From: Thiomicrorhabdus sp.
Lineage (GTDB): Bacteria; Pseudomonadota; Gammaproteobacteria; Thiomicrospirales; Thiomicrospiraceae
Direction of reading: 5' to 3'
DNA: 64,000 bases
NCBI RefSeq assembly: GCF_963662555.1
Contig: NZ_OY759719.1
Coordinates: forward strand, 950,985 to 1,014,984
In this document: in pieces, positions 22,079 through 40,710 of the stretch
Layout: every line of letters begins with the position of its first letter
Numbering within the stretch: position 1 is the stretch's first letter
The notes under the pieces: model-generated
What the model was told of the DNA's origin: nothing
Seen by the model: only the letters and a program-made list of their open reading frames with translations
The model's database searches: none
Position numbers and translations under genes: made by a program

Positions 22079-22789
22079 TTAAAACCAGAATCTTAAACCC
22101 GCAACCACGCTTGCTTCAGAAGTTTGTCCTCCTTCATTTTTTGCATAGTCTGCAGTAGTACCATAGAGCTGATTAAATTTAATTCCAATATAGGGTGCAA
22201 ACTTTCTGTTGAACTCATACCGCAATCTAATTGATAAATCTGTGCTGGATAGTCCAGAACCAATCGCCATTTTAGAGTCATCTGAAGTGTAAGCTTTTAT
22301 GGCAATACTTGGTGTTAGAATGAGTCTTTGAGTAAATAAGGCTTCATACTCGGTACTCAATCTTAGCCCAATATTCTTATCGTTGAGTAGTAAATCAGCG
22401 TTAGTTTCAAAGAAATAGGGGGCTAACCCTTGAAGCCCAATGATACCCCAAGATTGATTATGCTCTGGTTTTGTATCAAAGCCTAAGCCTGCTTGAATAT
22501 CCCAGTATTTATCGACTGGATGACTATAAAGTAATTGGTTTTCAGATTCTGTTTTGCCGTTGACTGTTTCACCTTCACTTTTTAAATACAGTTTATGCCA
22601 ATCTTTACCAATCCAGGCCGTTGCATCCCATGAAGTAGGTGTGTTGGCTTGTGAGCTAATTTCAAATTTTTCTACCAATACTTTTGTAAGCAATGGATCT
22701 CGCACCCCGCCTGCATATACGTTAAGTGATGCAATAGTTAAGGTTGATAGTAGTGTCATTTTTTGGACTTTGTTCAATATTACTTTCAT
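22079..22789 (-). CDS. copB: Copper resistance outer-membrane protein CopB
   Basis: A 236-residue outer-membrane barrel of the CopB/PcoB family, with a signal peptide ending near AYA (VYAGGVRDPLL). It lacks the long Met-rich N-terminal extension of some CopB proteins. The end, VAGLRFWF, is a typical barrel terminus. It is the last gene of the copper operon, 28 bp after copA, with AGGAGAA ahead of the ATG. It likely works with CopA in periplasmic copper tolerance. Confidence 0.92.
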   Translation of the reverse strand: MKVILNKVQKMTLLSTLTIASLNVYAGGVRDPLLTKVLVEKFEISSQANTPTSWDATAWIGKDWHKLYLKSEGETVNGKTESENQLLYSHPVDKYWDIQAGLGFDTKPEHNQSWGIIGLQGLAPYFFETNADLLLNDKNIGLRLSTEYEALFTQRLILTPSIAIKAYTSDDSKMAIGSGLSSTDLSIRLRYEFNRKFAPYIGIKFNQLYGTTADYAKNEGGQTSEASVVAGLRFWF

Positions 22790-22817
22790 GTAAATTCTCC
22801 TAGAATACTTAACTTTA

Positions 22818-24809
22818 TTAACGTACTTGCACGCGTCTATACATGCCCATCATGTGGTACAGCATGTGACAGTGGAATGCCCAGTCACCTTTAGCATCCA
22901 TAGTGACGCGGTAACTTATTTTTGAGCCTGGTTGTACAATAATGGTGTGTTTTCTAGGTATGTGGTTTTCATCTCCATTTTCTAAATCACTCCATAAACC
23001 ATGCAAATGCATTGGGTGATTCATCATTGTGTCGTTTATAAAGGTAATGCGAATTCGCTCACCATATTTAAATTTTAAAGGTGGTGCTTCATCAAAAGGT
23101 ATTCCATCGATTGACCACATATAACGTTCCATATTACCTGTGAGGTGTAATATAAGTTCTTTAGTCGGTTTAGGCTCGTTGCGAGTAGGGTATAGGTTTT
23201 TTAAGTCCGCATAGGTTAGTACTTTTCTACCATTGTTTCTTAAGCCAACACCTGGATCATCTAATTGATAGCTAGCTCCCATAGATCGCATATCTATTTG
23301 GGGGCCATCTTTTCTGGGAACTTGTATTTGTGGCAGTTTGGGATTCATGTCCATTGGAATAACCATGTTATCCATTTCCATGTTCATTTGAGGGTTGTTA
23401 TATGATGAGTGCATACCCTTCATGTCAGACATATCATGAGAAGAATGGTCCATATTCATACCCTTCATGCCCGACATGTCGTGAGGTGAATGGCTCATCT
23501 CCATTCCACCCATATCTTTCATACCAGACATATCGTGAGATGAATGGCTCATATTCATATTACTCATATCCTCCATGCCTTTCATATCAGACATGTTATG
23601 ACTCATTCCCATGTCTTTCATGGTGAGGATTGGTTTAGGATCCATTTTTGGCGTTTCTGCAATTTGATTAGGATCTGAAGTGATTGAGCCAATGGCATAT
23701 CCAGAACGATCGATGGCTTGTGCAAAAATAGCATAAGGTTGCTTTTGTGTATCTGGTTCTATAATCACGTCATAGACTTCTGCAACTCCCATCCGAAACT
23801 CATCAACCTCTATAGGTTGAATTAAGTTGCCATCAGCGGCGACTATCTTGATTTTTAAACCTGGAATTCTGATATCAAAAAAAGTCATTGCTGAGCTATT
23901 AATAAAGCGTAATCTCACTTTTTTCCCTGATTCAACGACCGTTCTCCAGTGGGCGTTAGGAGATAATCCATTCATTAAATAAGTGTACGTTGCACCTGTA
24001 ACATCTGAAATATCACGATCAGACATGCGCATTTCATTCCACATCTTTCTATTATTCCAGGCCTTAAAAAATCCGTTTTGTTTGACTTCATCCCAAAAGT
24101 CGCCAACGGTTCTTTCACTAAAGTTGTAATAACTTCCCATCTTTTTAAGGTTGGCATAGATCGTCTCTGGTGCAGTATCAGACCAATCAGAAAGTTGAAT
24201 AACAAAGTCATAGTCGGAATCTATGGGTTGTGGGTCTTTGGGTAAGATAACTATAGAACCGTAAACTCCAGATTGTTCTTGGTAACCTGTATGACTGTGA
24301 TACCAGTAGGTTCCATTCTGTTGAACTTTAAATTGATAGGTAAAGGTTTCACCTGGTTTGATACCGTCAAAACTAAAACCAGGTACGCCATCCATTTCTG
24401 TTGGCAAAATAATGCCATGCCAGTGAAGAGAAGTAGATACTGTAAGTTCATTTTTGACGTGAATGGTAACTGTATCACCTTCCTGCCAGACTAATGTTGG
24501 AGCTGGTAGTGAATTATTAACAACCTTAGCTATGCTCGGTTTTCCAGTAATGTTGACTCGTTTTTCGCCTATTGTTAAGTTGAATTCAGAGCCTATTAAA
24601 ACGGGATGTTTAGGTTTTTTATTGGTGGTCTTAATTGCAGAAAATTCGCCATTAGCAAAAGCAGAAGGAATATGCGTAGCTACTGCTGAAGCGATAGATG
24701 ATAAGGCAATGCCGCGAACAAATTGACGGCGATTTATAGGACTGTTTACAGACTCATGTATAGAGTCTTTTATAGAATTTTGCTTATTGGGATACACTGG
24801 ATTTTTCAT
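22818..24809 (-). CDS. copA: Copper resistance multicopper oxidase CopA (PcoA)
   Basis: A 663-residue periplasmic oxidase with a Tat signal (NRRQFVRGIALSS). Cupredoxin domains carry the copper ligands: HWHG and WYHSH in the first, HPMHLHGLW and WAFHCHMLYHMMGMY at the C-terminus. About residues 395-475 form a Met/His-rich insert of five or so HDMSGMKGM-like units, typical of copper storage or binding in PcoA. It probably oxidises Cu(I) and holds copper in the periplasm. GGAG lies 6 bp before the ATG. Confidence 0.95.
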   Translation of the reverse strand: MKNPVYPNKQNSIKDSIHESVNSPINRRQFVRGIALSSIASAVATHIPSAFANGEFSAIKTTNKKPKHPVLIGSEFNLTIGEKRVNITGKPSIAKVVNNSLPAPTLVWQEGDTVTIHVKNELTVSTSLHWHGIILPTEMDGVPGFSFDGIKPGETFTYQFKVQQNGTYWYHSHTGYQEQSGVYGSIVILPKDPQPIDSDYDFVIQLSDWSDTAPETIYANLKKMGSYYNFSERTVGDFWDEVKQNGFFKAWNNRKMWNEMRMSDRDISDVTGATYTYLMNGLSPNAHWRTVVESGKKVRLRFINSSAMTFFDIRIPGLKIKIVAADGNLIQPIEVDEFRMGVAEVYDVIIEPDTQKQPYAIFAQAIDRSGYAIGSITSDPNQIAETPKMDPKPILTMKDMGMSHNMSDMKGMEDMSNMNMSHSSHDMSGMKDMGGMEMSHSPHDMSGMKGMNMDHSSHDMSDMKGMHSSYNNPQMNMEMDNMVIPMDMNPKLPQIQVPRKDGPQIDMRSMGASYQLDDPGVGLRNNGRKVLTYADLKNLYPTRNEPKPTKELILHLTGNMERYMWSIDGIPFDEAPPLKFKYGERIRITFINDTMMNHPMHLHGLWSDLENGDENHIPRKHTIIVQPGSKISYRVTMDAKGDWAFHCHMLYHMMGMYRRVQVR

Positions 24810-30936: not shown

Positions 30937-33765
30937 ATGTTTGTAAGTATTCGATGGAAAGCGGTAATATTACTCAGTTTTATTCTGTTTATAATCGCTT
31001 TTGCTTGGATATTTCAAGGTATATTCCAAAATATACATACTTATGAATTTGATATTGAACAGAGTCAAGAAAGTCATCAAAAAATTCTTGATCAACTGAT
31101 TACCGATAACTACATCAAACTTTCCCAGCACGCACAACTCATTATCGATAATCCTAAGATAAAAAATTATCAAAAAACCTTATCCACCGAATCTAACGAA
31201 ATTAACGATTACCTAAAGTCACAATGGTACGCATGGAACCTCAATATTAGTATTGACTACGTAGCAGTTATTGATGGCAACGGTAAACGTATTGCTGAAG
31301 CTAATCAAGCTTTTACACCTTCTGAGTTACAAAGTCTAAGACGTTCAACCCGTTTATTTTCTCCTCGAGCTAAAGAAAAGCCACAAAATTTTATATTTTG
31401 CGAAAGCTCATGTATTCAGTTTGTGATGGAACCTTTTATATTTTCTGATGGCCATGTGGGGATTTTGACATTAGGGCAAAATATGTCAGACCTTATCACC
31501 CGTTATCATGCGGTGAGTTCATCAGACTTAGCGGTATTAATTCAAAATAATGACTATAACAAGTCAAATCAATCGGGAAAAGAGGGCAATTTATTAAAAA
31601 ATTGGAATGTTCATGTGTGGGCAATAACTCGTTTTAATGAACTATATTCTTACGTTGAAAATTTTAGTAAAAACCACAGTATGTTAGAAACCCAAGATAT
31701 AACGTTGTGGAACCTATGGAATACAGATTATTTTTTGAGAAATATGGTTCCAAGCAATTATATTCAGGTGGGTTCACCAGCCTATTTTATGAGTATTATT
31801 AATGAATCAAAAAGGCAAGAGCAGTTAAAGCAAGAGATTATACGTGGTGTATCTACAAGTTTAGTAGGGTGGATTTTAGCTGAAACTTTGCTTATTTTTC
31901 TTATGATGGGACCTATTCAACGGTTGCTAAAGATTGTACAAGCTCTTGAGTTACTCCCTAAACATCGATACAAATCAGCTATAAGTCTAATAAAAACCCC
32001 AAAAAAGCAAATTCGTGATGAAATCACTCAGCTAGAAGACAGTACGGTTTATTTAGCGAATGAACTTGAAAACTTGCATCTGGCGGTAGAGATATCAGAA
32101 GAGCAATTAAAAAACCAGATTTTAATGTTGACTCGCTCAAAAGAATTTTTACAACGTTTATTTGATAATGCCAACCTATATATTCTTACCCAATCCTTTA
32201 ATTATGAAGTGGCAACCAATAATCATCTGTTTTCTAATTCATTTGATACATCAGAAGAAAAGTCATTTTTAGAATTATTTTTAAGTTCTTATGATAAAAC
32301 GATCTTTATCGATGGCATTATTCGTTTAAAAGAAAATCCAGTTGAAAGTTTTCAGCAAGAAGCCAGTATGAAAACCATTCAGGGTGTCAAGATTACTTTG
32401 GCTTGGACGCATACCTTGGTTAAAGATGATGAAGGCCGTGATCAAGTATTATCTATTGGTATGGATATTACACAACGTAAAAACGATGAAATGACTTTAA
32501 ATTGGTTGGCCAATAATGATTCTCTGACCAAAATTGGTAACCGTAGAGCTTTTAAAAAAGATCTAGATAGGTTTTTGTCTCAAGATGAAACAGGAGCTTT
32601 GGTTTTTATTGATGTAAACCGTTTTAAACAGATTAATGATATTTATGGTCACTTGGCTGGCGACACGGTATTAATTGATATCGCCAAAAAATTAAAAGAA
32701 AACACCCGTAATCAAGATTCAATTTGTCGTTTAGCGGGAGATGAATTTACGATTTTAATGCCAGGTGTTTCCATTGATAACCTACCAGGTGTTTTAGAAA
32801 GCCTTTCAGATCAGCTAAATCAACAGATTACATTATCGGACTCTCGAGTAGTTGAGTACAGTGTAAGTTTAGGAGGTGCCGTTTTTCCTGATCATGGTTC
32901 AGATGAGCAAGCGTTGATAGTGCATTCTGATATGGCAATGTATCAGGCTAAGAAAAAAGGTTTGAAAAATTGGCATATCTTCAGTTATGAAGATGATCAG
33001 TTAAGTAATCTTCAGCAAGAACATGACATTATGAGACTGCTTAGGCTGGCGATTAAGAATGATTTATTTACTATGGTGTATCAGCCAATATTGGATATTA
33101 AACAACAAAAAGTAAGTCATTATGAAAGCCTTATAAGATTACAAAATGAAGAGGGTGAGTGGATATCACCAGGGATATTTATTCCTATTGCAGAACGGGT
33201 TGGGTTAATTAGAGATGTTGATTCTTGGGTTATTGAACATGTTTTTAGCTTTATGAAACAAGTATTAACTACACAACCAGATTTGTGCTTCTCAATCAAC
33301 ATCTCAGCCCCATCATTACAAGAGAAGTTATTTGCGATTCGTTTTTCTGAGCTTATAAGAGAAGCAAAAATACCGGCTCAAAATATTATTATTGAATTAA
33401 CGGAAACCGCCTATATTGAAAATTTTGTTCAAGTCTTAAAAAACTTAGAAGAGTTAACAAAGCTAGGTGTCTCAATTGCACTAGATGATTTTGGTGTAGG
33501 ATACTCTTCATTCAGTTACATGAAAAAATTACCATTAAAGTATGTAAAGTTAGATGGATCTTATGTACGAAACATTGTTTCTAGTTCAGAGAATAGTGCA
33601 TTTATTCAAAGTGTTGTTATTATGGCACAAGCATTCGGTATGAAAACGATTGCTGAATTTGTTGAAAATCAAGAAGTGCTTAATGTGCTTGCAGAGCTGA
33701 ATGTTGATTATGCGCAGGGGTACCATATTGGCAAACCCAATTCTGAATTAACCCCAGAGAAGTAA
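30937..33765 (+). CDS. Membrane sensor GGDEF-EAL protein
   Basis: A 942-residue protein. TM1 is at ~10-30, a large periplasmic region spans to ~305, TM2 lies at ~305-325, then a PAS-like region (~410-520), GGDEF (~525-685) and EAL (~695-942). The cyclase signature reads AGDEF (CRLAGDEFTIL), which can be active. The EAL signature reads ESLIRL, with DDFGVGYSSF and KLDGSYV intact, so phosphodiesterase activity is likely. It is the last gene of the binding-protein/porin operon and presumably converts their periplasmic signal into a c-di-GMP change. Confidence 0.9.
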   Translation: MFVSIRWKAVILLSFILFIIAFAWIFQGIFQNIHTYEFDIEQSQESHQKILDQLITDNYIKLSQHAQLIIDNPKIKNYQKTLSTESNEINDYLKSQWYAWNLNISIDYVAVIDGNGKRIAEANQAFTPSELQSLRRSTRLFSPRAKEKPQNFIFCESSCIQFVMEPFIFSDGHVGILTLGQNMSDLITRYHAVSSSDLAVLIQNNDYNKSNQSGKEGNLLKNWNVHVWAITRFNELYSYVENFSKNHSMLETQDITLWNLWNTDYFLRNMVPSNYIQVGSPAYFMSIINESKRQEQLKQEIIRGVSTSLVGWILAETLLIFLMMGPIQRLLKIVQALELLPKHRYKSAISLIKTPKKQIRDEITQLEDSTVYLANELENLHLAVEISEEQLKNQILMLTRSKEFLQRLFDNANLYILTQSFNYEVATNNHLFSNSFDTSEEKSFLELFLSSYDKTIFIDGIIRLKENPVESFQQEASMKTIQGVKITLAWTHTLVKDDEGRDQVLSIGMDITQRKNDEMTLNWLANNDSLTKIGNRRAFKKDLDRFLSQDETGALVFIDVNRFKQINDIYGHLAGDTVLIDIAKKLKENTRNQDSICRLAGDEFTILMPGVSIDNLPGVLESLSDQLNQQITLSDSRVVEYSVSLGGAVFPDHGSDEQALIVHSDMAMYQAKKKGLKNWHIFSYEDDQLSNLQQEHDIMRLLRLAIKNDLFTMVYQPILDIKQQKVSHYESLIRLQNEEGEWISPGIFIPIAERVGLIRDVDSWVIEHVFSFMKQVLTTQPDLCFSINISAPSLQEKLFAIRFSELIREAKIPAQNIIIELTETAYIENFVQVLKNLEELTKLGVSIALDDFGVGYSSFSYMKKLPLKYVKLDGSYVRNIVSSSENSAFIQSVVIMAQAFGMKTIAEFVENQEVLNVLAELNVDYAQGYHIGKPNSELTPEK

Positions 33766-33854
33766 ATTTAAAAAAACTATGAAATAAAAAATAGTCATTT
33801 TGGTCTTATAAATTGAAAGCGTTATCTTTCTTAATCAGAAACTGGAGAACAAAC

Positions 33855-34124
33855 ATGAAAAACAATTCACGTAGAGATTTTTTAAAATTAGCAGGTGCGG
33901 CAATGGTGGGTGTAACTGGTGTAGCTGCTGCATCTGAAAATCCATTTGGGTTTAAAGCTGTAGAATCAGACTCTTTACAAGTTGCTTCTGAAGGTAAATG
34001 CGGCGGTAAGCAACCTGAAGGCAAGTGCGGCGGTAAGCAACCTGAAGGCAAGTGTGGTGGCAAACAACCAGAAGGCAAGTGCGGTGGTAAACAGCCTGAA
34101 GGTAAATGTGGGGCAAAATCGTAA
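33855..34124 (+). CDS. Bufferin-like RiPP precursor with five EGKCG motifs
   Basis: An 89-residue precursor. The N-terminus has a Tat signal (SRRDFLKLAGAA), not the Sec signal usual for known bufferin precursors. Residues 46-86 are five EGKCG motifs spaced by GKQP, with Cys at 49, 58, 67, 76 and 85 (exact 9-residue period). In HvfA and bufferins, an MNIO enzyme modifies Cys in EGKCG to copper-binding heterocycles or thioamides. The DUF692 enzyme and DUF2063 partner follow downstream. GGAG lies 7 bp before the ATG; the frame extends 14 codons further without a ribosome site. Copper binding is inferred from the family. Confidence 0.86.
   Translation: MKNNSRRDFLKLAGAAMVGVTGVAAASENPFGFKAVESDSLQVASEGKCGGKQPEGKCGGKQPEGKCGGKQPEGKCGGKQPEGKCGAKS
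33990..34112 (+). repeat. Coding 27-bp tandem repeat (4.6 units)
   Basis: Four and a half 27-bp units that encode EGKCGGKQP. Synonymous third-base differences between units, with no amino-acid change, suggest selection on the peptide. The tandem form could expand or contract by slippage. Confidence 0.85.
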
Positions 34125-34163
34125 AGTTGGTTAGTTTCATATGAAATAACTAAAAATGGATAA

Positions 34164-34195
34164 CCCTAAGGTAAATAAACTTTAGGGCTTTATTC
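34164..34195 (+). terminator. Weak terminator between precursor and MNIO genes
   Basis: CCCTAA (34164-34169) pairs with TTAGGG (34182-34187), followed by a T-rich tract, 40 bp after the precursor stop. Partial termination would give more precursor than enzyme. Confidence 0.5.
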
Positions 34196-34342
34196 ATTTA
34201 TAAAATTAAAATCAATAAGCTAATTTTGTTTTTCAGGCTTGTTATGATTTATCGGTAAACTATCACTAGCAAACCCTATATTTTATAAGCCACAATTAAG
34301 TGATAATTATTCTTAATTTGTCACAATCTTCTTTTTAAAATA

Positions 34343-34356
34343 ACCAGGCCTGGTAA
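34343..34356. repeat. ACCAGGCCTGGT palindrome upstream of the DUF692 gene
   Basis: A perfect copy followed by TAA. It lies in the 314-bp gap between the precursor and DUF692 genes, about 85 bp before the DUF692 start. Apart from this and the weak terminator, the gap shows only A/T-rich sequence. Confidence 0.8.
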
Positions 34357-34438
34357 ATTTCAGTTATATAAATCATTGGGTTCTTTTACAAAGGCGATTC
34401 TACGTATGAGCCGTTTTATTTATTCTTAGGTAAGCATT

Positions 34439-35287
34439 ATGCAAGTCGTGAGAGATTATCCTATACAAGGTGTTGGTTTAGGATTACGCAGAGATTTTTT
34501 TGATGAGGTGTCTCAAACCAAAAATCTAGCGTTTGACTTTATGGAAATTGCTCCTGAAAACTGGTTACATTTAGGTGGTCGGTATGGTAAAAATTTACGT
34601 TCACTGACGGAACGTATTCCTTTTGTTTGTCATGGTTTATCGCTTGATTTGGGTGGGATTAAACCATTAGATATAGACTACCTCAAAGATTTAAAACAAT
34701 TTTTTTCACAACATGACATTAGAGTCTATACCGAGCATTTAAGTTATTGCGGTGATAGCGGACATTTATATGATTTAATGCCAATTCCTTTTACAGAAGA
34801 AGCGGTGTTTTACGTTGCTGATAGAATTCGGCAAGTGCAAGATGTTTTAGAACGTAAGATTGGTATTGAAAATGTTTCATTCTACGCCATGCCAACAACT
34901 CAAATGAGTGAACAGGATTTTGTTAATGCGGTGTTGAGTGAGGCTGAGTGTGACTTATTGTTTGATGTAAATAACACCTATGTTAACTCTATTAATCACC
35001 AATATAATGCTCAAGATTATATGCAATCGATGCCAACTGAACGCATTGTTTACATGCATATGGCAGGGCACTTTGATGAAGCTGATGATTTAAAAATAGA
35101 TACTCATGGTCAACCCGTAAAACAACAAGTGTGGGATTTATTAGAGCAAACTTATCAAACACACGGCTTGATTCCTACTTTATTAGAGCGTGATTTTAAT
35201 ATTCCACCTATGGAGGAATTATTACAAGAAGTGGAGCAAATTAAGGCTTATCAACAGGCCTGGAAGGTGAACAATGTCACTGAATAA
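34439..35287 (+). CDS. MNIO family RiPP-modifying enzyme (DUF692, BufB/HvfB-like)
   Basis: A 282-residue TIM-barrel enzyme of the multinuclear non-heme iron oxidase (DUF692) family. It starts GVGLGLRRDFFDEV and carries metal-site motifs FMEIAPENW, CHGLSLDLGG, YTEHLSYCG, IGIENVSFYA and FDVNNTYVNS, with DTHG near the end. The family oxidises Cys of precursor peptides using iron and oxygen. It overlaps the DUF2063 gene by 14 bp, a mark of tight coupling. The expected substrate is the EGKCG precursor 315 bp upstream. Confidence 0.92.
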   Translation: MQVVRDYPIQGVGLGLRRDFFDEVSQTKNLAFDFMEIAPENWLHLGGRYGKNLRSLTERIPFVCHGLSLDLGGIKPLDIDYLKDLKQFFSQHDIRVYTEHLSYCGDSGHLYDLMPIPFTEEAVFYVADRIRQVQDVLERKIGIENVSFYAMPTTQMSEQDFVNAVLSEAECDLLFDVNNTYVNSINHQYNAQDYMQSMPTERIVYMHMAGHFDEADDLKIDTHGQPVKQQVWDLLEQTYQTHGLIPTLLERDFNIPPMEELLQEVEQIKAYQQAWKVNNVTE

Positions 35288-36092
35288 GTCACAACAATCC
35301 TTACCGTATTTTCAGCTGTTGCAGCAGCAATTAACCGCACATATTCGTAATCCAAAACAGAACTCTTACAATCCTAAAGATGAAACAGCCATTGAACCAA
35401 GAAGGCTTAAGATTTATGAAGAGCTATTTTTTAATAATCTTCATGACTTTTTTAGCCAGTTGTTTCCAGTTTGCAAAACCGTTTTAGGTGAGCAACGTTG
35501 GGCGGAGTTGATTCGTGAATACTTGATTAAACACCAATCTCAAACTCCGCTGTTTCATGAACTGGCGGGAGAGTTTTTGGACTTTATGCATAATGAATTT
35601 ACGCCATTAGAAAATGATCCTGAATTTTTAATGGAGCTGGCTCACTATGAGTGGGTTGAGTTAGCATTAACGGTCTCTGAAGAGAGCGGTTTTGTTATTA
35701 ACAAAGATAACAAACAACAGTTACCGATTGATTTAGATACACAGTATCAGCTATCACCTCTGGCTTGGCCATTAGCTTATGAGTGGCCAGTGCATAAGAT
35801 TTCAAAAGATTTTCAGCCAACAGAAAAACCCATTGAGGTAACGACTTTATTAATGTATCGCTCAGCAGAATCCAGCCATGCCCAAAACACTCCTCAAAGA
35901 GAAAAGGTCTGTTTTATGGAGATGTCTCCACTTCTTTATCAATGGATAAATCAGTTAGAGAATTTTACGACTGCAAAAAAAGCACTTATTGAGGTTACAC
36001 AACAGACTCAGATGGATGAGTCTGCTTTAATAGGATTTGCACAACAGAGCTTGGCAGAGTTTGAACAATTGGGCATTGTTCGCCAATCATAA
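35274..36092 (+). CDS. DUF2063 partner protein (BufC/HvfC-like)
   Basis: A 272-residue protein with an N-terminal DUF2063 domain (~10-105, with RRLKIYEELFFNNL and FPVCKTVLG). DUF2063 proteins bind the precursor leader and help the MNIO enzyme. It overlaps the enzyme gene by 14 bp. The usual fourth gene, a DoxX-like membrane protein, does not follow; the next gene is yihY-like, 200 bp on. Confidence 0.9.
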   Translation: MSLNKSQQSLPYFQLLQQQLTAHIRNPKQNSYNPKDETAIEPRRLKIYEELFFNNLHDFFSQLFPVCKTVLGEQRWAELIREYLIKHQSQTPLFHELAGEFLDFMHNEFTPLENDPEFLMELAHYEWVELALTVSEESGFVINKDNKQQLPIDLDTQYQLSPLAWPLAYEWPVHKISKDFQPTEKPIEVTTLLMYRSAESSHAQNTPQREKVCFMEMSPLLYQWINQLENFTTAKKALIEVTQQTQMDESALIGFAQQSLAEFEQLGIVRQS

Positions 36093-36292
36093 AGGCTACT
36101 CTAATTGCTTTAGTATCTTTATTGGTTATTCATTTAGGGTAAATAGATTTTTACCTCATGCTTCAAGTTATTGATGGCCGCAGGGCATGAGGGCATGCCA
36201 GGTATGATAAAACAGCCATTCATTCACGATTCCATACTCTTTATGCGATAATGTTTTAAACCATATTTTATGCGAGTTTAAGGGAGATTCGT

Positions 36293-37243
36293 TTGCCAGA
36301 AGATGTCTTACAAAATCAGTTAACAGAAGCCAAACAGCTTAGAGTTGACTCTGTTTCATTATTTACCTTAATCAAGCAAGTAATGCATTGGCGTTTTTGG
36401 CAGCGGGTTTTTATTCATTTTAGAAACCGCCAAGGAACCGATGCCGTTGCAATTTTAGCGTACACCTCTTTAGTGGGCATTGTGCCTATGTTAGCGGTTA
36501 TGTTGGGGTTGTTTTCAGTATCCAGTTATTTTGATTCTTTTGAGGCTTTAGTCATGGATCAAGTCGTGCGTAATCTCATGCCTGATTCGCAACCGGTTAT
36601 TGAAGAATATATATATAAGTTTTCACAAGCCGCTGCCAGTTTAAAAGGACCAGGTCTAATCGTTATGCTATTTACAACAATTATGTTGTTGTGGAAAGTG
36701 GATCAAAAACTTAACGGTCTATGGTCACATCGCTTAAAACGAAAGTGGTGGGTAAATATTTTACAGTATCTAGGTGTTAGCTTACTTGGGCCTCTATTGC
36801 TAGGGTTAAGTTTAGTAATCAGTTCATCATTGTTGGCTTTGCCACTGTTTGTTGAAACAACACCTTTTATAGACAAGCTCACCTCAGGAATGAAGATCGT
36901 ACCGCTGATTTTAGCTTGGCTTGGTTTTACTGCTCTGTACAAGTTAGTCCCGATTGTTAAGGTGCCAATCAAAATAGCTTTAATTAGTGGCTTGTTTGCC
37001 ATGTTAGAGCTAGAACTGCTTAAGACGGGTTTTGCAACCTATGTTGAATGGTTTCCTACCTATGCGGTTGTTTATGGTGCTTTTGCTGCGGTGCCGCTGT
37101 TTTTACTTTGGCTATATCTAATTTGGTTTATCGTTATCTGGAATGGGGCCTTAGTAGCGACTCTAATGAATATGAATTCGCACAAACCTCGTACAGAAAA
37201 CAGCGACAAAGTGCCAAATACCTCAAAGGTTGTCAGTGAGTAA
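36293..37243 (+). CDS. YihY/BrkB family inner-membrane protein
   Basis: A 316-residue membrane protein with about six hydrophobic segments. Family features are FRNRQGTDAVAILAYTSLVG near residue 45 and VYGAFAAVPLFLLWLYLIW near the end. It was once called ribonuclease BN, which is not supported; the function is unknown. It starts at TTG with AGGGAGA upstream. Its end overlaps the following permease gene by 14 bp, so the three downstream genes form one unit. Confidence 0.88.
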   Translation: MPEDVLQNQLTEAKQLRVDSVSLFTLIKQVMHWRFWQRVFIHFRNRQGTDAVAILAYTSLVGIVPMLAVMLGLFSVSSYFDSFEALVMDQVVRNLMPDSQPVIEEYIYKFSQAAASLKGPGLIVMLFTTIMLLWKVDQKLNGLWSHRLKRKWWVNILQYLGVSLLGPLLLGLSLVISSSLLALPLFVETTPFIDKLTSGMKIVPLILAWLGFTALYKLVPIVKVPIKIALISGLFAMLELELLKTGFATYVEWFPTYAVVYGAFAAVPLFLLWLYLIWFIVIWNGALVATLMNMNSHKPRTENSDKVPNTSKVVSE

Positions 37244-39355: not shown

Positions 39356-39883
39356 ATGCAAAATAGACACCGCTTTTTTGAGCAGCTTGTTTCAGCCTAT
39401 GCAAACGATTTATATCGCTACGCTTATTGGCTTTGTAAGCAAAAGCCTCTTGCCGAAGACTTGGTGCAAGAGACCTTTTCTCGTGCCTGGAAATCCATAG
39501 AAAGTCTGAAAGATGAAAAAGCCGCTAAAGCTTGGCTGATTACCATTTTAAGACGAGAAAATGCTCGTCTTTATGAAAAATATCAACCACAACTGCTTGA
39601 GATAGAAGAGAGTTTAGTGGCCGATGATTACCATAATGAACCCAGCCATAATCTAGAAAAAGAGCAGCTTCATCACATGATTTTAAAACTGCCTGATGAG
39701 TATAAAGAACCACTTATTTTACAAATTATGTGGGGCTTTAGTGGTCATGAAATTGCCGCAGAGCTTGAACTGAAATTGGCAACGGTAAACACCCGATTAT
39801 TTAGAGCCAGACAGCAATTAAAACAGATGATGAATAATGAAATAACCGAATTTGACTTACAAAATAATAAAGGAGCAAAATGA
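39356..39883 (+). CDS. ECF sigma factor (RpoE-like)
   Basis: A 175-residue sigma factor with only regions 2 and 4. Region 2 is YRYAYWLCKQKPLAEDLVQE followed by TFSRAWKS; region 4 includes LPDEYKEPLILQIMWGFSGH and TRLFRARQQLK. It overlaps its DUF3379 anti-sigma partner by 4 bp. No -35 motif of the usual autoregulated type was seen in the 258-bp upstream gap, which otherwise holds nothing recognisable. It could govern the nearby copper RiPP genes, but no shared promoter was found. Confidence 0.9.
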   Translation: MQNRHRFFEQLVSAYANDLYRYAYWLCKQKPLAEDLVQETFSRAWKSIESLKDEKAAKAWLITILRRENARLYEKYQPQLLEIEESLVADDYHNEPSHNLEKEQLHHMILKLPDEYKEPLILQIMWGFSGHEIAAELELKLATVNTRLFRARQQLKQMMNNEITEFDLQNNKGAK

Positions 39884-40710
39884 TGAATGAAATTACATTT
39901 CGTACTAAATTGCTCACTAATCCCTATGAATTAGATTCAGATATGCTGGCTTTTTTAGAGCAAAACCCAGAGAAAAAACAGAGCGTTCAAAAAGCCAGAG
40001 AGTTTGATCAAAAAATCTCTGATGTCTTAGATGTTGATGTGCCAGAAGGGCTACATGCCAGAATTTTGCTGAATCAAAGTTACCAACAAAACCATCAACA
40101 AAATAAGGTTGATAATAAGCCTGATTCATCCATAGCAGGAGGAATTGAGACCGAAGTTATTTCAGTGAAAACAGCTAATAGTAATCCAAATGGTTGGTTA
40201 AGTAATCCCTTTGCTAACTGGGCAGTGTGGACGTCAGGTATTGCTGCTAGTGTTATCGCTTTTGCTTTGTTATTTAACGTTTTGTACTCACCAAATGTAC
40301 ACAAAACAATTAGTGGTGATGCGATGGTCAATCACATATTGGCACATATTGCAGAAGACCCCACCTTAATGACTGCCGTTAAATTGCCAAGTACCGAATC
40401 TGAAATGCATCAGCTATTTGCCAGTGTAGGAGCTCAGCTTAATAAGCCTGTAGAAGGTATGAGTTATGCAGGTATTTGTGATGTAGAAGGCCAAAAAGGT
40501 TTACATATTGTTATGCAAGAGAATGGCCAACCAATCACAATTATTGTGATGCCTGGTCAGCAAATTACTGCCATGCAAGCCTTTGAAAAAAGCGGTTATC
40601 ATGGAGAATTAATGCCCGTAAAAGGGGGAATAGTTGCCATAGTAGCAAATACAATGGAGCAAGTTGCTTTGGCCCAGACGCGTTTCTTTAGAGCGGTTAA
40701 ATTTGCTTAG
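39880..40710 (+). CDS. DUF3379 membrane anti-sigma factor
   Basis: A 276-residue protein with a cytoplasmic N-terminal zone (~1-105, PYELDSDMLAFLEQNPE), a membrane segment at ~112-132 (AVWTSGIAASVIAFALLFNV) and a periplasmic C-terminal domain of ~140 residues. This matches DUF3379 proteins encoded beside ECF sigma factors in marine gammaproteobacteria. The periplasmic domain would sense the inducing stress. Confidence 0.85.
   Translation: MMNEITFRTKLLTNPYELDSDMLAFLEQNPEKKQSVQKAREFDQKISDVLDVDVPEGLHARILLNQSYQQNHQQNKVDNKPDSSIAGGIETEVISVKTANSNPNGWLSNPFANWAVWTSGIAASVIAFALLFNVLYSPNVHKTISGDAMVNHILAHIAEDPTLMTAVKLPSTESEMHQLFASVGAQLNKPVEGMSYAGICDVEGQKGLHIVMQENGQPITIIVMPGQQITAMQAFEKSGYHGELMPVKGGIVAIVANTMEQVALAQTRFFRAVKFA

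Follow-up and report, generated by a model that had tools for sequence, protein, structure and literature searches.

Within a 64,000-nucleotide stretch of the Thiomicrorhabdus sp. genome (hereafter the window; NCBI RefSeq assembly GCF_963662555.1, contig NZ_OY759719.1, positions 950,985 to 1,014,984 of the forward strand), three consecutive genes resemble a biosynthetic cluster for a ribosomally synthesized and post-translationally modified peptide (RiPP). The first encodes a small precursor in which repeated EGKCG motifs follow a leader of the twin-arginine translocation (Tat) type, the second a multinuclear non-heme iron-dependent oxidative enzyme (MNIO, DUF692), and the third a DUF2063 partner protein. 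A gene for an extracytoplasmic function (ECF) sigma factor and a DUF3379 gene lie further downstream. The features, in window coordinates, are as follows (Sec denotes the general secretory route and RRE a RiPP recognition element).

33780..33808, + strand: ECF-sigma-type promoter element TGAAATAA-N14-GGTCTTA upstream of the precursor, 0 mismatches
33855..34124, + strand: precursor peptide gene, 89 residues, Tat-type leader and five EGKCG motifs, with counterparts in relatives
33855..33932, + strand: Tat-type signal peptide, about residues 1–26, with SRRDFLK; TIGR01409 above cut-off and clade comparison
33933..33989, + strand: linker with an NPF...QVA motif, common to Sec-type precursors
33990..34121, + strand: core with five EGKCG motifs at a 9-residue period (tandem repeat, period 27)
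34164..34187, + strand: intrinsic-terminator-like hairpin between precursor and MNIO; fold z −5.9, T tail weak
34439..35287, + strand: HvfB-type MNIO (DUF692) maturase, 282 residues; NF003818, PF05114, PDB 3bww
35274..36092, + strand: HvfC/PME1 partner (DUF2063 and NGO1945_C), 272 residues; NF050145, PF09836, PF22106
39196..39224, + strand: variant promoter element TGAAAGAT-N14-GGTCTTA upstream of the ECF sigma gene, 2 mismatches
39356..39883, + strand: ECF sigma factor gene; PF04542, PF08281, NF009170 (242 bits vs 197)
39880..40710, + strand: DUF3379 protein with a hydrophobic segment; PF11859 (119.8 bits vs 33.2)

The precursor open reading frame (ORF) starts with an ATG at 33855, its stop codon ends at 34124, and the protein begins MKNNSRRDFLKLAGAAMVGVTGVAAASENPFGF. 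The leader would be cleaved after AAA, a site judged by eye, and the EGKCG motifs of the core start at residues 46, 55, 64, 73 and 82. Coordinates and spacing are exactly those given in a preliminary description of this DNA, which had noted the precursor length of 89 residues, the SRRDFLK leader and the 9-residue spacing of the five EGKCG motifs, and the repeated EGKCG that characterizes the Buf_EGKCG/oxazolin (captophorin) cluster is present in five copies. The four full 27-nt repeat units vary at 8 nucleotide sites, all of which are third codon positions, and encode a single peptide, indicating selection on the repeat at the protein level. The compact form of this repeat had also been called unusual, which holds only partly, as precursors of the Thiomicrorhabdus/Hydrogenovibrio family carry 2 to 13 CG motifs at varied spacing. 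In four loci of relatives (L028, L039, L042 and L043), the motifs are mostly EGSCG or QGNCG and adjoin an HvfB-type MNIO, which makes these relatives a natural test of substrate range.

Both enzymes exceeded the curated cut-offs of their families. The MNIO scored 344.7 bits against PF05114 (cut-off 25) and 435.3 against the HvfB model NF003818 (cut-off 360), its closest solved structure by sequence is PDB 3bww (250 bits), and it has all 23 of the H/D/E/N/C positions kept in ≥97% of 126 MNIO sequences. The partner reached 86.6 bits with PF09836 (cut-off 27.2), 52.0 with PF22106 (27) and 231.3 with the HvfC model NF050145 (142), and is closest by sequence to PDB 3dee (36.5 bits). The two genes overlap by 14 nt, as their coordinates confirm. 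The curated models of the two enzymes confirm the earlier assignment to the family that combines an MNIO, a DUF2063/RRE-type PME1 partner and an EGKCG precursor. Overall, the earlier reading is largely supported, and the cluster is of the oxazolin/captophorin type.

The precursor and MNIO genes are 314 bp apart, a gap that includes the terminator-like hairpin; four terminator-like sites were found in 33700–36300, compared with 1.4 expected. When gaps were measured to an alignment-based estimate of the MNIO start and limited to <2000 bp, their median was 121 bp in Tat clusters (n = 28) vs 31 bp in Sec clusters (n = 60). The longer gap would favour more precursor than enzyme. The DoxX-like fourth gene, described before as absent, is indeed missing from the 2.7-Mb window genome (no PF07681 match anywhere), but its absence is no hallmark, since 28/62 family genomes have a DoxX gene somewhere. 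Six partner positions differ between the Tat and Sec groups (29 vs 20 sequences; one position in the C-terminal domain); these may reflect drift and were not used.

Published work describes a Sec signal as typical of Buf_EGKCG/oxazolin precursors, a family that is defined by its motifs (PMC12452194). The window leader is instead an RR leader of the Tat type. It carries the S/T-R-R-x-F-L-K motif of Tat substrates before a mildly hydrophobic stretch, it scored 24.1 bits against TIGR01409 (cut-off 16.7), and the window genome has a translocase match (one TatC, 224 bits). To compare leaders across genomes, we counted as Tat-type those EGKCG-type precursors of the fetched loci whose leader has RRx and then F (or a similar residue under the rule applied) ahead of the hydrophobic stretch. 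RRxF-type leaders were found in 34/42 family precursors (32/36 genomes; the precursor of genome G002 contains a run of N and is not among the 42) vs 0/122 precursors from 113 genomes outside the family, a set drawn from relatives and from class and phylum samples with NF050137, which has no match in the window’s own genome and therefore biases the survey towards paired motifs. This survey covers all but 15 of the 131 genomes with a match, and its bias is partly offset by a leader-based search of 369 class genomes, whose listed matches were covered except for nine (seven leader-only ones in ORFs of 373–514 residues, and two others). At two loci outside the family, L078 and L087, the RR lies upstream of the start codon and was not counted, although L087 recurred under a relaxed rule; a Lentisphaerae match (L058) is the leader of a 577-residue ORF with no KCG repeats in the part read, and was not taken as a precursor.

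Among the 34 Tat-type sequences, RR was invariant despite varied Arg codons (first R: CGT 22, AGA 7, CGA 4, CGC 1; second R: AGA 29, CGT 3, CGC 2), and the F after RRx was encoded by TTT in every case. Their hydrophobic regions were also less hydrophobic than those of Sec leaders (mean 1.56 vs 2.00; Mann–Whitney p 8e-12, a nominal value as the sequences are related). The earlier suggestions that the leader is Tat-type instead of Sec, and that this is unusual, are thus supported by the comparison within and outside the family. Leaders of both kinds are followed by the linker motif [ND]PF...GY..A, whose GY is found in 26/31 Tat sequences (as first called) and in 105/122 others. This common linker gives the impression that Tat and Sec precursors differ by an exchange of the signal alone.

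The RR could have another meaning, namely that the same product uses Sec in practice and that the RR has been kept in the leader peptide as a docking site for the partner. Positive charge near the end of a leader helps to avoid Sec, and by eye the window leader has no such charge. The signal peptide of bufferins and of HvfA is at the same time their leader (PMC13419390, citing Junger et al. 2026), which would also fit a docking role. Yet none of the 122 outside precursors has RR while 105 keep the linker GY, which argues that this kind of partner needs no RR. In addition, most of the S/T-R-R-x-F-L-K consensus occurs together with the less hydrophobic region, and orphan precursors of the MNIO-less genomes G020 and G026 keep the RR. 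We consider export by Sec, with the RR kept for docking, to be quite unlikely, and favour a leader that directs the peptide to Tat.

Next, we evaluated the distribution of the cluster across the window’s family, in which 37/62 genomes had a precursor match. In 28 Tat loci, the MNIO start, estimated by alignment, is 32–737 bp after the precursor, and a Tat precursor is present in 30 of the 32 family genomes that have an MNIO match. Both figures speak against a scenario in which the precursor is exported unmodified as a plain Cys-rich metal-binding peptide while MNIO and partner have another substrate, as does the position of the sole MNIO of the window genome directly downstream of the precursor. 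What this scenario could account for is the presence of such peptides in five genomes that are ≥99% complete and lack any MNIO match, even by PF05114 (G013, G014, G020, G026 and G031), but we regard it as highly improbable compared with modification by the adjacent enzymes. All five have Sec-type precursors, seven altogether, and G020 and G026 additionally have one Tat-type precursor each. These orphan Tat-type precursors (L124 5415–5936; L063) contain 10–13 CG motifs of the QGKCGGNPNQP type. At L123 5426–7014 (G020), L125 4905–6529 (G026) and L127 4344–5945 (G013), all from Thiomicrorhabdus genomes, a Sec-type KCG-repeat peptide is followed by DoxX and by a gene resembling an ECF sigma factor, whose domains were tested at L123 alone, i.e., an accessory set minus the modifying enzyme.

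In a quick tree of 126 MNIO sequences, the 29 from Tat genomes and that of the Sec member G044 formed one clade (Shimodaira–Hasegawa-like approximate likelihood ratio test, 99). The G044 sequence was nested inside this clade (86) on a longer branch, so its placement is unsure. On this tree, one gain and one later loss of the Tat leader would be the simplest count, and the change of export route probably had a single origin, no later than the base of the MNIO clade. G002 (83% complete) has a Sec precursor, with a partial MNIO on another contig.

Gene neighbourhoods add to this picture. Upstream of the precursor, many relatives have an ArsR-family gene, a gene for an S41 peptidase (in 11/17 loci of one set and 15/16 of another) and mostly a DJ-1 gene, and the full run in G018 consists of ArsR, S41, DJ-1, precursors, MNIO, partner and a 5-oxoprolinase-like gene. 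The precursors of G018 include two tandem genes (L140 6498–7139), of which one encodes a degenerate leader (TRRGFMTF). Between flanks of the same kind, G014 and G031 have a Sec-type precursor with no MNIO or partner, and G002 is alike on the oxoprolinase side. G014 and G031 formed one branch (100/100) on the genus side of an ECF tree that was rooted on the Hydrogenovibrio-side genus and whose forks at the genus base do not resolve. Since the outgroup and other genus members have Tat leaders, loss is the simpler count for G014 and G031, the alternative being replacement by another, older Sec gene. The precursors of both genomes retain the core promoter element.

The promoter element, in its strict form, precedes 23/28 MNIO-adjacent Tat precursors of the family compared with a shuffle mean of 0.005, although the pattern was taken from eight of the counted sequences and hence defined on the set in which it was counted. 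Its core, TGAAA-N17-GGTC, was found within 200 bp upstream of 22/28 ECF orthologues (27 of these 28 genes identified at E <1e-60 and one split in G002), of 22/28 precursors, and of 1/118 precursors outside the family, while shuffles gave 0.01 and 0.03 on average. In the window, the same element stands before target and sigma gene, the sigma copy being a 2-mismatch variant; at this level the window contains 6 matches vs 1.64 expected, so this copy counts only together with those of the relatives. The ECF gene lies within ~9 kb of an EGKCG-type precursor on the same contig in 24/28 genomes (places compared by hand), and the remaining four comprise two without a precursor match and two with the genes on different contigs. 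Given that its gene overlaps the ECF gene by 4 nt, the DUF3379 protein is a probable anti-sigma factor. Taken together, this suggests that the linked ECF sigma factor probably drives the cluster, a form of control with a precedent in the homologous Haemophilus influenzae operon, which is driven by the ECF factor RpoE2 (PMC7907618). The anti-sigma factor of H. influenzae is a 67-residue cytoplasmic protein, unlike the window DUF3379 protein, and the term DUF3379 was not found in the open-licence literature searched.

A genus-wide search with the promoter pattern returned 16 places. Nine of these precede known precursors, one precedes the G002 ECF gene (orthologue of window 39356–39883), and two stand before the gene of a membrane protein, in G009 and in G030 (DUF4395 by a test in G009). 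The other four have no sensible target: two lie inside ORFs (one on the opposite strand), one is 173 bp before a 382-residue ORF, and one has no suitable ORF. The DUF4395 gene (L271 1501–2331; L132 4985–5734; L133 3214–3951) carries the element in G009, and in G047 and G040 it has a Tat precursor and DoxX close by; its product is a possible further regulon member. The element has another exact copy at G000:C1:325086. This copy falls within an opposite-strand 878-residue ORF that looks cation-ATPase-like (named by eye), has only a 98-residue TTG-started ORF in its own direction, and was taken as chance.

Among the closest known systems is the oxazolin/HvfABC(X) operon of H. influenzae (Buf_EGKCG/oxazolin, captophorin class), with which the cluster has in common EGKCG repeats, an HvfB-type MNIO, an HvfC-type DUF2063-RRE partner and ECF control (PMC12452194, PMC12668002, PMC13419390, PMC7907618). 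The window cluster differs in its Tat-type leader (Sec in H. influenzae), in having no DoxX gene, in a precursor that scores below the HvfA model cut-offs, and in having one EGKCG per 9-residue unit where H. influenzae HvfA has AEGKCGEGKCG pairs. EGKCG repeats are also found in fontiphorin (FonABC) and gonophorin (NgoABC), in which MNIO and PME1 make a 5-thiooxazole core; no Tat leader is reported for these, and the word Tat is absent from the main text of that paper (PMC12668002). In the RiPP-lipoprotein NedA, EGKCG is modified by an MNIO and partner, and export follows the general route (PMC12636315). While NedA has a lipoprotein (signal peptidase II) signal, the window leader is Tat-type and without a lipobox. 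Csp1 of methanotrophs is a four-helix bundle with unmodified Cys and no MNIO, unlike the product expected here. It offers an analogy only, as a Cys-rich copper store that is a predicted Tat substrate (MtCsp1; PMC6747150). The word “Tat” is likewise absent from PMC12452194, PMC13097082 (the same work as PMC12668002), PMC12636315, PMC12538549, PMC13419390 and PMC13174530. Hence, within the open-licence literature, the family-wide leader exchange and the promoter link to an ECF/DUF3379 pair were not found in print, whereas the kind of cluster and its ECF control are already known. The landscape paper did use SignalP 6, and its supplementary tables may list Tat leaders.

We consider it reasonably likely that the three genes encode an oxazolin/captophorin-type RiPP that binds a metal, most likely copper, and that is exported by Tat and controlled by the linked ECF sigma factor. 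The sequences show the gene content, the Tat-type leader and its conservation across the clade, the common promoter element and the linked position of the sigma gene; from these and from precedent, we infer the chemistry, ligand, transport and sigma action as follows. The partner would present the precursor to the MNIO in the cytoplasm, and the MNIO would perform a four-electron oxidation of each EGKCG Cys to 5-thiooxazole. The finished peptide would then be exported by Tat and not by Sec, lose its leader, and serve as a periplasmic copper buffer. Transcription would be switched on by the linked sigma factor and held back by the DUF3379 protein, with one promoter element serving both the precursor and the sigma gene itself. 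MNIO-PME1 pairs are known to install 5-thiooxazole on EGKCG (PMC12668002), which is also the group that HvfBC produce on HvfA (PMC12668002, PMC13419390), and full-length HvfA is modified by HvfBC much better than HvfA without its signal (PMC13419390). How MNIO precursors with Sec leaders escape export before modification is presented as an open question (PMC12452194, Discussion). Tat is a route for folded proteins (PMC6747150), and a leader of this type would therefore make premature export less of a problem. In one family, a cluster of this kind has shifted to a Tat-type leader, so that the question becomes testable by leader swaps; the neighbouring case in which the enzymes are naturally missing and the leader is Sec adds to this testability, and the sigma/DUF3379 pair provides a handle on the natural inducing signal.

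Tat substrates among redox enzymes are checked before export by proofreading chaperones such as TorD and DmsD. The partner may act in a comparable way, holding the RR leader until the EGKCG Cys have been converted and thereby restricting export to finished peptide, although we regard this quality-control route of MNIO, partner and Tat as rather doubtful. Consistent with it, the precursors of G014 and G031, at the same syntenic locus and with the same kind of promoter but without the enzymes, have a Sec leader, as does that of G002. The Tat precursors that G020 and G026 keep as orphans, and the combination of Sec precursor and MNIO in G044, argue against it as a strict rule.

For the ligand, we infer a copper-buffering role from the family and from neighbouring genes. 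Products of such MNIO clusters generally bind Cu (PMC12668002, PMC13419390). Pump genes of the CusA/CzcA type occur at such loci in four genomes: in G018 and G008 the pump gene and a Tat precursor belong to one run of genes, whereas in G040 and G047 it neighbours the MNIO and partner genes. The window itself includes a further candidate:

22079..24809, − strand: copA-copB pair, 9 kb upstream of the cluster; TIGR01480 765 bits (CopA), PF05275 249 bits (CopB)

As a copper link, this pair was given little weight because none of 16 relatives has it near the cluster.

Importantly, several observations weigh against the proposed account. For the precursor itself, the usual GY of the linker motif is lost, both HvfA models stayed below their cut-offs (NF050188, 15.5 vs 95; NF050137, the KCGExKCG domain, 13.6 vs 19.5), and the leader did not reach the cut-off of the Pfam TAT_signal model PF10518 (17.1 bits vs 22.7). 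In the family, G044 combines an MNIO with a Sec precursor, while G020 and G026 have a Tat-type precursor without an MNIO match, implying that there the Tat leader needs no modification. For the control, besides the way in which the promoter pattern was defined, 23/28 loci are concordant for the presence of an ECF orthologue and the core motif, with a Fisher p of only 0.05. For copper, TIGR00914 was over its cut-off for 4/4 pump genes tested, but this model is blind to copper vs other metals. The absence of copAB from all 16 relatives refers to 18–19.5 kb read for each, with ≥6 of the 16 stretches short of rpoD and the G033 stretch without any marker gene. In Microbulbifer, the related MmrA-C were undetected with or without copper, and modified MmrA helped Escherichia coli only slightly against copper (PMC12538549).

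These last points bear on the possibility that the product serves in the response to stress from oxidants or thiol-reactive agents (hypochlorite, reactive sulfur) or to a soft metal other than copper, with copper binding as a secondary property. The failure of copper to bring out MmrA-C fits this possibility, as do the induction of the homologous H. influenzae operon by hypochlorite via RpoE2 (PMC7907618) and the DJ-1 and ArsR-family genes that flank the locus in many relatives; moreover, no copper regulator turned up at the locus, although no search was aimed at one. Against it stand the general Cu binding of such products (PMC12668002) and the CusA/CzcA-type pump genes beside the genes of relatives. 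We consider a primarily stress-related role to be unlikely, if worth keeping in mind, and retain copper buffering as the more probable function.

Two further observations concern copper and metal efflux genes. The window CopA has an RR leader of its own and a Met/His-rich repeat, corresponding to a 54-bp DNA repeat at 23456–23579. In G018 and G008, a second Tat precursor lies downstream of a CusA/CzcA-type efflux run and away from the MNIO (L134 5927–10842 and L135 3264–8210).

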